Source: Phycisphaerae bacterium (GTDB lineage: Bacteria; Planctomycetota; Phycisphaerae; Phycisphaerales; SM1A02). Taken from it: a DNA stretch of 34,685 nucleotides. Under the pieces are notes generated by a model. The model saw nothing but the letters and a program-made list of their open reading frames with translations, made no database searches and had not been told where the DNA came from. The stretch lies in assembly GCA_002709295.1 (NCBI GenBank), contig PAQL01000012.1, forward strand, positions 137,032-171,716. Reading direction: 5' to 3'. Positions within the stretch are counted from its first letter, which is position 1. Every line of letters begins with the position of its first letter. This document shows positions 5,609 through 31,442 of this stretch, piece by piece. Both the position numbers and the translations under genes were made by a program.

Positions 5609-5682
5609 GGGCGCTTAGCTCAGTTGGCTAGAGCATCCCCGTTACAGGGGGAAGGTCGCTGGTTCGAGTCCAGTAGCGCCCA
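5609..5682 (+). tRNA. tRNA-Val (anticodon UAC)
   Basis: The 74-base sequence folds into a complete cloverleaf. It has a 7-bp acceptor stem (GGGCGCT with AGCGCCC), a 4-bp D stem (GCTC/GAGC), a 5-bp anticodon stem (TCCCC/GGGGA) around loop GTTACAG with anticodon TAC, and a T stem GCTGG/CCAGT around TTCGAGT. The discriminator base is A and the 3' CCA is not encoded. Positions 32 and 38 of the anticodon loop are both G, which is unusual because position 32 is nearly always a pyrimidine. Confidence 0.96.
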
Positions 5683-28795: not shown

Positions 28796-29248
28796 TCAGC
28801 CGCCCCCGCCCGATTCGATCTCCACCCTCGCGGTTCGGACCGGAGCGGCATCCTTCTCCCAGCCGCGAACGTATTCGAACACCAGCGTGGCCTTGCCGGT
28901 CCCCGTCGCCTTGACCAGGAACCTGGTCAGACCGCTCGAACCCATGCGATCGGGATCCGCAGGCGTGAAGACGGGATCGCCGGACATCTCGAGAAAGGAC
29001 GGCAGGCTCCCGAGCAGACGCCAGGCGTACCCCGTCCCCGCGTGACCGGGGAGATCGAACGCCATCAGCATTCCCGGCCGGGTGCTCTGCCGGGTGGTCG
29101 AATCGGTGTGCAGCACGTCCACGATGTCGGGCTGGACCATGGTTCGCCGGACGGGAGCGGAGTCACAGCCGACCGCGATTCCCCCGGACATGCCGGCGGC
29201 GATCACGAGGGAGAGGCATCTGCGTGCGAACCTTGCATCGATGTTCAT
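28796..29248 (-). CDS. chagasin-like (I42) protease-inhibitor lipoprotein
   Basis: The 150-residue product has a lipoprotein signal (LSLVIAAGMSGGIAVGC, lipidated Cys28) and a domain with the chagasin/inhibitor I42 pattern. Chagasin-type proteins block papain-like cysteine peptidases through three loops. The first loop position (NPTTG in chagasin) reads HAGTGYAWRL at about residues 69-78. The second (GxGG) reads GSSGLTRFLVKATG near 103. The third (RPW) reads EYVRGWEKDAAPVRTARVEI near 125-144. A lipid anchor would place it in the envelope, guarding against secreted proteases; this is inference. A doubled ATG gives starts at 29251 or 29248; I prefer 29248, which is seven bases after GGAG. The next gene upstream (SolA-like) is 85 bases away on the same strand. 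Confidence 0.85.
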   Translation of the reverse strand: MNIDARFARRCLSLVIAAGMSGGIAVGCDSAPVRRTMVQPDIVDVLHTDSTTRQSTRPGMLMAFDLPGHAGTGYAWRLLGSLPSFLEMSGDPVFTPADPDRMGSSGLTRFLVKATGTGKATLVFEYVRGWEKDAAPVRTARVEIESGGGG

Positions 29249-29333
29249 CATGGGGCTCCATGTCGGTCGGGAGCGAGGACGTTAACCGCTGGACGACATC
29301 GGCAGCCGCCGCCGGTCGGCGACACGGGTGATG

Positions 29334-30494
29334 TCATCCCTTGAATCGCGACATGCCGAGAAACCGGACGTCATGCGCCGCGTCGAGGCCGAGCCCCAGA
29401 TCGGCGATCCGCTCCCCGAGAGCGGGAGCGAACTTGTAACCGTGCCCGCTGAAACCCGCCGCGACCACGACTCCGGACCGGCCGGGCACGCGGTCGATCA
29501 CGAAATGCTGGTCGAGCGACATGGTGTAGAGACAGGATGCCGCTTCGTGGGGAGGTTCCAGCAGCCCGGGGAGGTAGTCGGAGACATCCCGGTGAAATCG
29601 GGCGGTGACCTCCGCAGCGATCTCGCGATCGACATCCTCGGGATCGACCGCAGGTCCGGGCCCGTGGAATCCGATCTTCACCCCCGAGGGGCCGACCTGT
29701 CCCGCATGTGCGGGGACCCCGTAGTAGACCCCGTCTCCGAAACGCCCCTCGTCGTCGATCAGCCACGCCGGCATGCGGGATGAATCGATCTCCGATCCGC
29801 GTCCCTCGGTGGAATCACACCAGACGATCACCTTGCGCTGGGGCTCGAGCGAGGCACTGGAGAGTTCCGGCAGCAGTGTGCGCGTCCAGGCCCCCGCGGT
29901 GACGATCACCGCCGATGCCTCCAGTCGACGCCCATCACAGATCACCACCGGGCCACCCTCTCCCTCCTCGATCGCCCGAACCTCGAGACCGGTGAGGATC
30001 CGGGCTCCGTGACGACGGGCCACCTCGAGATGAGCCGCCACTCCCGTCTCCGGGACCACGAAACCGGCATCCGGCTCGAACAGCCCTCGGTGATCGTCCG
30101 GAACATCGAACATCGGCCATCGGCGCCGAAGATCATCCGGCTCGATCTCCTCGGCCACGATTCCATGTCGGGCCGCCGCCGACAACGACTCGCGAAGCAC
30201 CTCGCTCTTCGGGCCACCGGTCAACAGCACGCCGCATCGCTCGAGGCAGCGACGGCCGGTTTCGGACTCCAGACGTTCCCAACCTTGGAAGGCGTCCCGA
30301 GCCAGCGGAACATAGTCGGGGTGCTCGAAGTAGGCGGCCCGGATGATCCGGGATCCGCCGTGACTGCTTCCCAGATCGTGCGGCGGCTCCAGACGGTCGA
30401 TGCCGATGACCGGCACCCCTCGACGGGCGACCGCCGCCAGCGCCGCCGATCCGATCCCTCCCAGACCTGCAACGATGATCGGAGCCTGTGTCAT
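29334..30494 (-). CDS. FAD-dependent sarcosine/N-methyl-amino-acid oxidase (SolA/MSOX type)
   Basis: The 386-residue product belongs to the monomeric sarcosine oxidase/N-methyl-L-tryptophan oxidase family, which oxidatively demethylates N-methyl amino acids to formaldehyde and peroxide in the cytoplasm. The Rossmann FAD site GLGGIGSAALAAV is near residue 10, followed by IGIDRLEPPHDLGSSHGGSR and RAAYFEHPDYVPL. The C-terminal signature CLYTMSLDQHFVIDRVPG includes Cys321, the residue that covalently binds FAD in MSOX (Cys315 there), and ends in AAGFSGHGYKFAPALGE. Length and motifs fit the family, but the exact substrate cannot be told. The start at 30494 begins just before the FAD site; the frame extends to 30659 across the terminator hairpin and is rejected there. 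A leader of over 100 bases separates this start from the hairpins. Confidence 0.92.
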   Translation of the reverse strand: MTQAPIIVAGLGGIGSAALAAVARRGVPVIGIDRLEPPHDLGSSHGGSRIIRAAYFEHPDYVPLARDAFQGWERLESETGRRCLERCGVLLTGGPKSEVLRESLSAAARHGIVAEEIEPDDLRRRWPMFDVPDDHRGLFEPDAGFVVPETGVAAHLEVARRHGARILTGLEVRAIEEGEGGPVVICDGRRLEASAVIVTAGAWTRTLLPELSSASLEPQRKVIVWCDSTEGRGSEIDSSRMPAWLIDDEGRFGDGVYYGVPAHAGQVGPSGVKIGFHGPGPAVDPEDVDREIAAEVTARFHRDVSDYLPGLLEPPHEAASCLYTMSLDQHFVIDRVPGRSGVVVAAGFSGHGYKFAPALGERIADLGLGLDAAHDVRFLGMSRFKG

Positions 30495-30599
30495 GAGTCG
30501 GGTTCCCGCTTGCCGGAACGATGACGGTTTCACAGGATCCTGTCCACCCTGACGTCGAGAAGGCCAATCGATCGTTTGCCGACTCCCGTGAAAAGAAGA

Positions 30600-30625
30600 C
30601 CGGCTCCGCCCGAGGGCGGAGCCGG
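30600..30625 (-). terminator. strong intrinsic terminator in the SolA-TetR gap
   Basis: CCGGCTCCGCC pairs perfectly with GGCGGAGCCGG (11 bp) around a four-base loop. On the minus strand it is followed by TCTTCTTTT, so it should stop leftward transcripts; on the plus strand the tail is only CTTTGAAAA. No annotated leftward gene lies to its right. Confidence 0.75.
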
Positions 30626-30634
30626 CTTTGAAAA

Positions 30635-30672
30635 GGGGTCTCGACAACCGACGAATCAATCGTCAAGACCCC
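30635..30672 (-). terminator. second hairpin, upstream of the terminator
   Basis: On the minus strand GGGGTCTTGAC pairs with GTCGAGACCCC as a full 11-bp stem with one U-G wobble and a 16-base loop, followed by TTTT. On the plus strand the wobble becomes a C-A mismatch. The strand bias and T-tail suggest that the functional RNA is leftward. With 30600-30625 it forms a tandem terminator or a structured RNA. Confidence 0.55.
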
Positions 30673-30768
30673 GGACGAAAGAGTCAGGATTTGTCCTTCA
30701 TGGACGACCGAATGTTAGCCTCTGAACCCGTTCGAGAAAGTCCGGGGCGAAAGTTCCAGGATTTTTCC
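30672..30768 (+). repeat. two-copy 25-base imperfect direct repeat
   Basis: Copies at 30672-30696 and 30744-30768 match at 19 of 25 positions, sharing CGAAAG and CAGGATTT and both ending in TCC. Each is followed within 1-7 bases by TCATGGA. The second copy leads into the TetR-type dyad; the first leads only into a half-site (ATGGACG). It looks like a duplicated regulatory unit. Confidence 0.5.
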
Positions 30769-30777
30769 CGTTCGATC

Positions 30778-30799
30778 ATGGAGGATCAACCTCCATAAT
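30778..30799 (+). promoter_or_regulatory. probable TetR operator overlapping the tetR-family -10 box
   Basis: ATGGAGG and CCTCCAT are perfect 7-bp inverted repeats with a five-base spacer (30778-30796). The right arm overlaps CATAAT at 30794-30799 (5 of 6 to the -10 consensus), 37 bases before the TetR start. Size and position fit an autorepressor operator. The -35 is weak. Confidence 0.6.
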
Positions 30800-30836
30800 C
30801 GATCCGGGTCGCCTTTTCGGAAGAAAGAGTACCGAA

Positions 30837-31442
30837 ATGCCAAGTACCAAGGATGCCATGGAGCCTTCCTCCTCCAAAGAGGGGACCAGGGAGCGATTGA
30901 TGGCCGCGATGATCAAGGTCGTGGGCTCGGAGGGTCTTCATGCGGCGAGCGTCCGCACGATCGCGAAGGCGGCCGGGTGCAACGAAGCCGTCCTCTACCA
31001 GCATTTCTCCAGCAAGCTCGCGATGCAGCAGGCGATCTACGAGGAGATCGTCACGGAGATGGCCACCGAGAAACGGGAGATCGCGAACACCGCACGAGAA
31101 CCCGAGGAGCTGATCGACCGGTGGGTCGAGGCGACCTACCGCTTCTACGACCTGAAGCCCTATGCATTCGCGTACGTGTACATGTCGTACCCGCCTCTGC
31201 AGCCGACCGACCCATCGTTCATCGGGCTCAACTCGAAGATCTTCCTCGACGCTATCAAGGCCCTGACCCCGCCTCCGGGACATCGGATCGACACGTCCGC
31301 CGGCAACTTCGCGGTCTTCCGCGCCTCCCTGCTGGGCCCGCCCCGCGAGATCCACTCCGGAGAGATCTCCGGCAATGCCATGGACTACGTCGAAGTCACG
31401 GCACGCTGCGCCCGCGCGATCCTGATTCGCACGATCGACTGA
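30837..31442 (+). CDS. TetR/AcrR family transcriptional regulator
   Basis: The 201-residue product has the N-terminal TetR helix-turn-helix at about residues 16-62: TRERLMAAMIKVVGSEGLHA, then SVRTIAKAAGCNEAVLYQHF with SSKLAMQQAIYEE, where ...IAKAAG...LYQHF is the family signature. The C-terminal ligand/dimer domain is helical and diverged, with aromatic residues (YRFYDLKPYAFAYVYMSYPP), so the effector is unknown. The ATG at 30837 follows GAAAGAG by about five bases; an internal ATG eight codons downstream is less well placed. It is divergent from the SolA-like gene and convergent with the DUF1552 gene, 16 bases away. Autorepression through the dyad at 30778-30796 is likely, and the SolA-like gene is a possible target. 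Confidence 0.92.
   Translation: MPSTKDAMEPSSSKEGTRERLMAAMIKVVGSEGLHAASVRTIAKAAGCNEAVLYQHFSSKLAMQQAIYEEIVTEMATEKREIANTAREPEELIDRWVEATYRFYDLKPYAFAYVYMSYPPLQPTDPSFIGLNSKIFLDAIKALTPPPGHRIDTSAGNFAVFRASLLGPPREIHSGEISGNAMDYVEVTARCARAILIRTID

Follow-up and report, generated by a model that had tools for sequence, protein, structure and literature searches.

The locus and its predicted hairpins

The window, that is, the entire 34,685-nucleotide stretch of DNA analyzed here, is located on contig 12 of a 3.68 Mb genome assembled in 43 contigs (G000). Within it, a gap at 30495-30836 separates two divergent genes: a leftward gene for a SolA-like FAD oxidase of the N-methyl-L-tryptophan oxidase family (29334-30494, minus strand; PF01266; NF008425, 365 bits against a cut-off of 257), which we propose to be the regulated gene, and a rightward gene for a TetR-family regulator (30837-31442, plus strand; PF00440). 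Downstream of the SolA gene, the window also contains a gene for a chagasin-family (I42) peptidase-inhibitor-like protein (28796-29251, minus strand), and a protein that looks similar by eye is encoded downstream of SolA at two other loci (L018 and L024).

The first-pass annotation placed two hairpins in this gap, at 30635-30672 and 30600-30625, and both are present at these positions. Hairpin 1 (30635-30672, minus strand) is terminator-like: as annotated, 11 outer pairs form in the minus-strand RNA, one of them U-G; the hairpin folds as 17 pairs and is followed by U4 at 30631-30634 (tail UUUUC). Hairpin 2 (30599-30626, minus strand) has a 12-bp stem with the minus-strand tail CTTCTTTTCA and, being a GC-rich stem followed by a U-rich tail (CUUCUUUUC), is classified as an intrinsic terminator. 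T-rich tails had been described on the minus strand only; the minus-strand tails are found at both hairpins, but the plus-strand side of hairpin 2 carries a short T run as well (CTTTGAAAAG).

Between 29000 and 32500, two terminator-like sites were detected, hairpin 2 being the stronger one, compared to 1.6 +/- 1.5 in shuffled sequences. Across the window, there are five terminator-like hairpins on the minus strand and one on the plus strand, and whole-window shuffles (n=10) yield 0 to 5, with a mean of 2.2; the bare number of hairpins per strand does not decide whether the element is real. It is the conservation described below that removes chance as an explanation. The minus-strand RNA from 30836 to 30590, which the first-pass annotation had singled out for folding, is indeed more stable than its shuffled versions (-114.5 kcal/mol compared to -83.05 +/- 4.56; z -6.9; 0 of 200 shuffles as good); the plus strand of the same region folds well too (z -5.4).

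The element, i.e., the hairpins together with the short linker that precedes them, matches no family in Rfam release 15 at the gathering threshold, and over the whole window the only match at this threshold is a tRNA at 5609-5682. With E values up to 10 allowed, the gap produces 11 matches, all far below gathering, the best of which has an E value of 0.073 and 15 bits against the required 162. Nothing recognized as this element was found in a search of the open-access literature. The Rhodopirellula-1 motif, present in Proteobacteria and Planctomycetes, is listed without an Rfam number in a published table (PMC2864571).

Distribution and gene association

The first relative was identified in G001 by a DNA search of 61 genomes including G000: the similarity (76% identity) covers only window positions 30599-30685, that is, the linker and the hairpins. 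In G001, a genome of the same genus as G000, TetR, the hairpins and SolA follow one another as they do in the window; GACTCTTTCGTCCGGGGTCTTG is unchanged, and both stems have diverged through compensatory changes. Another genome, G002, was reached through a protein search with TetR and shows the same arrangement with a single hairpin. A covariance model (R1) built from five sequences matches the element in 10 of the 181 genomes of the family (E <= 2.2e-9). These ten carriers belong to two genera, three to the genus of the window and seven to the second genus.

In all ten carriers, the SolA-like oxidase gene lies downstream on the strand of the element, and a divergent TetR gene is located on the other side in nine; in the tenth (G440), the contig ends first. 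Thus, the description of the hairpins as orphan terminators with no gene to terminate did not survive the comparison: they precede SolA on its own strand in every carrier and, in G002, hairpin 1 with its UUUUU tail ends 27 nt (recounted) before the SolA ATG. In two genomes (G438, L042 3622-4875; G439, L044 4025-5254), two more TetR-like stretches lie behind the first TetR; at L024, which is the same locus as L042, they read as a single 418-aa open frame.

A SolA match (E <= 1e-20) is present in 104 of the 181 family genomes and, therefore, the element is specific to the TetR-SolA arrangement of the two genera. One further genome of the second genus (G035) encodes SolA on a contig that begins about 160 nt before the gene, so that its carrier status is not judgeable. 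As a control, the 420 nt upstream of SolA were scanned in the best 20 of the 93 other family genomes with this gene, and two of these contain a weak terminator-like site of 7-8 bp. The same scan of the gaps with the element yields stems of at least 12 pairs with a T-rich tail in 8 of the 10 genomes, a 7-bp stem in G439 and none in G002; in the latter, hairpin 1 carries a U5 tail, but the width of its inner loop exceeds what the scan allows.

Searches farther afield yielded no convincing member outside the two genera in the samples covered (397 class genomes and 392 phylum genomes). With R1, the class genomes gave G000, G442 and G443 only, and the phylum genomes gave G000 and one weak match (28.9 bits) inside a long open frame. 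A pattern scan of 294 phylum genomes with up to 3 mismatches recovered the window and one 3-mismatch match in G305. Four loci in the named genome collection match a 20-mer exactly, and three of them are the element (G001, G438 and G440); at the fourth, in a Myxococcales record, the hairpin is not formed, and a viral contig with a 16-mer match does not continue into the hairpin. Three weak matches within the family (G454, G026 and G452; E 0.067-0.094) have no match to SolA, TetR or DUF1552 nearby and were judged to be due to chance and not counted. One alignment (A5) includes these three, together with two loci present in duplicate and a self match on the reverse strand; the clean count uses alignment A7.

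Conservation of the linker and the stems

The core of the element, GACTCTTTCGTCCGGGG (30669-30685, minus strand), is 17 nt long and identical in all ten genomes. It consists of a 13-nt linker, GACUCUUUCGUCC (30673-30685, minus strand), a candidate sensing or pairing site, and GGGG (30669-30672, minus strand), which opens hairpin 1. Each of the ten genomes contains a single exact copy of the linker. When the ten gaps are placed ungapped on the linker and the mean pairwise identity is calculated in 17-nt windows, it equals 1.00 over the 17-mer, falls to 0.22-0.29, the random level, in windows whose start lies 20 to 85 nt upstream, and on the other side amounts to 0.55-0.71 over the rest of hairpin 1, 0.32-0.44 in the hairpin 2 region and 0.26-0.30 beyond. 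The SolA proteins themselves are 47-94% identical in pairwise comparisons (n=9; G001, cut by the contig end, was left out). A coding frame (D-S-F-V-R-G-L) that runs through the 17-mer in some genomes was rejected as the reason for this conservation: the block is identical at every base including third positions, and in the window this frame has no start codon before the upstream stop.

The homologous gaps had been proposed as a source of compensatory changes, and such changes are found in both stems. Over the 11 pairs of hairpin 1, all 110 cells in the ten genomes are paired, and sliding the partner strand leaves at most 64.5% paired. Four of the 11 pairs show double-sided changes (reached in 3 of 500 column shuffles), with a total of eight cells with such changes (0 of 500), and the covariation score is likewise reached in 0 of 500 shuffles; the number of further pair types does not exceed that in shuffles (401 of 500). 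The second hairpin is found in nine of the ten genomes, G002 having hairpin 1 only. Its sequences are largely different in three subgroups, with two compensatory pairs inside each, and in G439 two pairs are broken. Thus, as expected of intrinsic terminators, structure is maintained through compensatory changes, in hairpin 1 across the carriers and in hairpin 2 within subgroups. Because the tails of hairpin 1 range from UUUUU (G002) to AUUC or CUUC (G438, G439 and G440), the real terminator in some genomes must be hairpin 2, with hairpin 1 mainly structural there.

In the window, SolA starts at 30494, 104 nt past hairpin 2 (recounted). The distance from the hairpins to SolA in nine genomes is roughly 75-140 nt, the values other than those for G002 and the window being rough, with start positions slightly off. 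The predicted structures, the conservation and the gene association of the element are shown here, and the element is a real, conserved RNA element without an Rfam match that is tied to one oxidase gene.

An alternative is that the linker functions at the DNA level, as an operator, for example for TetR, with the hairpins serving as ordinary terminators that keep stray transcription out of SolA. Such an operator would explain why the element goes with the TetR-SolA pair and is missing where TetR homologs (39-40% identity) are encoded beside other genes, in G015 and G008; furthermore, the linker contains a weak palindrome, GAC-N6-GTC, of which the window has two looser copies (30742-30768 and 30816-30842). 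We consider this reading improbable, given that the invariant block enters the stem of hairpin 1 at a fixed spacing, that this stem shows RNA-type compensatory changes and that none of the ten genomes contains a second exact copy. Moreover, 3-bp half-sites are short for a TetR operator. Separately, the window contains, between the element and TetR, an inverted repeat with 18-nt arms (30767-30807; 83% complementary, 5-nt spacer), which is a candidate operator.

Promoter-like sites and alternative pairing

Upstream of the linker, candidate promoters were sought as matches to the hexamer consensus, on which all the assignments below are based. In the window, a weak -35-like hexamer, TTTCTC (30734-30739, minus strand), is followed after 16 nt by a -10-like hexamer, TAACAT (30712-30717, minus strand), with 6 of 12 consensus positions matched, and the transcription start can be guessed to lie near 30705. 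This pair was picked because G001, G437, G440, G441 and G442 have promoter-like pairs about as far from the linker (20-46 nt upstream). The window also has a better pair (8 of 12), whose end lies 75 nt upstream of the linker, and the same scan finds another 8 of 12 pair between the hairpins and SolA. Good pairs just upstream of the linker (8-10 of 12) are TTTACA-16-TATTAT in G437, TTTACA-16-TAAACT in G441, TTCGCA-17-TATATT in G440 and TTGATT-16-TATCTT in G001; those in the window, G002 and G438 are weak (6 of 12), and within 110 nt neither G002 nor G438 contains a promoter-like pair better than 6. Upstream of the promoter-like pair, a direct repeat, GGCGG-N5/6-GGCGG, is present in G443 (L043, around 2985), G437 (L045), G441 (L046) and G442 (L047), with the version TTGCGG...TTGGCGG in G001 (L003), and is a possible regulator site for the same promoter.

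The short open reading frame that lies in this region in the window (31 aa, 30684-30779, minus strand) brings up leader-peptide attenuation, whereby this frame, or its last five codons, MKDKS, would be translated and the ribosome would control the terminator. Apart from the frame ending at a TGA that overlaps the linker, the comparison speaks against this model, which we regard as very improbable: none of the other nine gaps has an equivalent of the 31-aa frame, no peptide is common to the ten genomes in the stretch scanned, and the part before the linker varies in length (13-40 nt from the guessed starts) and shows random identity.

A switch between alternative structures was considered as well. 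Part of the GGAC/GTCC pairings that the first-pass annotation had pointed out falls in the unconserved sequence ahead of the linker. For RNAs that begin at the guessed starts and stop where the 5' arm of hairpin 1 ends, the arm is predicted to fold onto the linker in seven of the ten genomes, with 10 pairs in G001 and G443 and six or seven in G438, G440, G439, G441 and G442, outer pairs being added in G438 and G440; in G000, G002 and G437, other pairings are preferred. The pairing between the arm and the linker would be mutually exclusive with hairpin 1. Its core, GACUCU/GGGGUC, is complete in nine genomes, is broken at one pair in G002 and hardly varies; it shows no covariation across the ten genomes and could be due to chance. 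Given the little variation, the lack of covariation and the break in G002, switching through this pairing is a suggestion only. In longer RNAs, the predictions often join the two ends of the linker, GAC with GUC, and leave its middle mostly unpaired in eight of the ten genomes, the exceptions being G443 and, in part, G439.

A putative transcription attenuator

The first-pass annotation left the choice between a small RNA and a leader of the SolA-like gene. This pair of readings is supported in part, and of the two we favor the leader: the element probably is a transcription attenuator, conserved within the 5' leader of the gene for the SolA-like oxidase. Under this interpretation, transcription would start at a promoter just to the right of the element, guessed near 30705, and proceed leftward, producing an RNA that consists of a short variable 5' part, the linker and both hairpins, the second followed by its U tract. 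In the default state, the polymerase would halt at the hairpins, yielding an RNA of roughly 115 nt. Some factor, be it a protein, an RNA acting in trans or a stabilized GACUCU/GGGGUC pairing, would act via the linker and relieve termination, so that SolA is transcribed. The linker is likely to be the sensing or antitermination site; what we infer are the promoter, the signal, the termination inside the cell and the continuation of transcription into SolA.

Several observations bear on this interpretation. A terminator precedes a constant gene on the strand of that gene in all ten genomes, and the succession of a promoter-like pair, a variable part, the linker, the hairpins, the U-rich tail and SolA is, judging by the sequence, the order of a leader with a built-in terminator. 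The strongest argument for action in cis comes from G002: given how close hairpin 1 ends to the ATG in this genome, no complete promoter fits between the terminator and SolA. On the opposite side, the promoter match close to the element is weak in the window, which has an 8 of 12 pair between the hairpins and SolA, the distance between the hairpins and SolA in the other nine genomes could accommodate a SolA promoter, and a linker in front of a terminator fits the seed of a small RNA as well.

Leaders controlled by LicT, PyrR, TRAP or the T-box, systems with recognition sequences of their own, are similar to the element in that a terminator lies ahead of the gene on its strand and is preceded by a conserved segment. 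The possible mutually exclusive pairing would be another likeness to leaders with antiterminators and terminators, although that of the element has no support from covariation, and the element differs from the intrinsic-terminator attenuators in matching no Rfam family. Antitermination through boxA, the sequence recognized by NusB/S10, was also considered: the CUCUUU core is common to boxA and the element, but the rest of the consensus is missing from the element, and in G000, the one genome used for this comparison (three others searched gave no 16S), the motifs CTCTTT, GCTCTT, TCTTTC and GTTCTTT are absent upstream of one 16S match; this reading was rejected. The 16S rRNA matches in G000 are split between C32:54923-55751 (model positions 9-873) and C5:65111-65752 (874-1520), probably an assembly effect, as the lengths of L080 and L081 suggest that both lie less than about 100 nt from a contig end.

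The principal competing explanation is a stand-alone gene for a trans-acting small RNA of about 115 nt, located between TetR and SolA, in which the C/U-rich linker would be the seed and the hairpins the terminator, with SolA transcribed from its own promoter. The element resembles such RNAs in its linker, strong hairpins, U-rich tail and, if the guessed start is right, its length; an invariant linker present in a single exact copy per genome ahead of stable hairpins, with promoter-like pairs just upstream in several genomes, is compatible with this possibility. Potential targets can be found too. The ribosome-binding region of TetR in the window, GGAAGAAAGAGTAC (repeat family D1), is nearly complementary to the linker, but this complementarity is absent in G001, where the region upstream of TetR reads GGAGG. 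Another sequence, GGACGAAGGAGTC, would base-pair with the linker along its full length, one of the pairs being G-U. In G000 and G002 (L060 and L061, respectively; site at 1501), it is located at matching positions of a long open frame (66% identity between the two frames); limited to two of the ten genomes and to a frame that may or may not be the coding strand, it moves the odds little.

A search of the ten genomes for the full linker with up to 1 mismatch returned 42 sites, ten of which are the element itself, compared to 19 for the reversed control pattern; the 20 examined among the other 32 revealed no common 5' UTR target. The sites GACTCTTTCTTCC in G438, G440 and G439 were discarded as targets: they belong to an inverted repeat between convergent dnaA-like and Fpg-like genes (names based on the translated sequence rather than on a family search) and were taken to be terminators. 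This conserved inverted repeat, with GACTCTTTCTTCCC (L084 1495, L085 304 and L083 2147), looks like a two-way terminator. The small RNA also has to contend with the fixed position and strand of the element directly ahead of SolA in every carrier and with the lack of room for a complete promoter in G002, and we consider it rather unlikely.

Returning to the attenuator, a broader generalization can be offered tentatively, as a possibility that we consider short of probable: the element might represent a new class of planctomycete cis-regulatory RNA, a very small leader in which an invariant 13-nt linker is joined to a hairpin that lies beside, or itself forms, the terminator, and is read by a protein, an RNA or a small molecule, thereby switching on the gene for an amine or amino acid oxidase, with the TetR regulator acting on the same promoter. 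A conserved structured RNA without an Rfam match was reached here from a small oddity in raw sequence. Its invariant 13-nt linker offers a precise starting point in the search for a new regulatory factor in these planctomycetes, and the SolA leader could serve as a simple test system.
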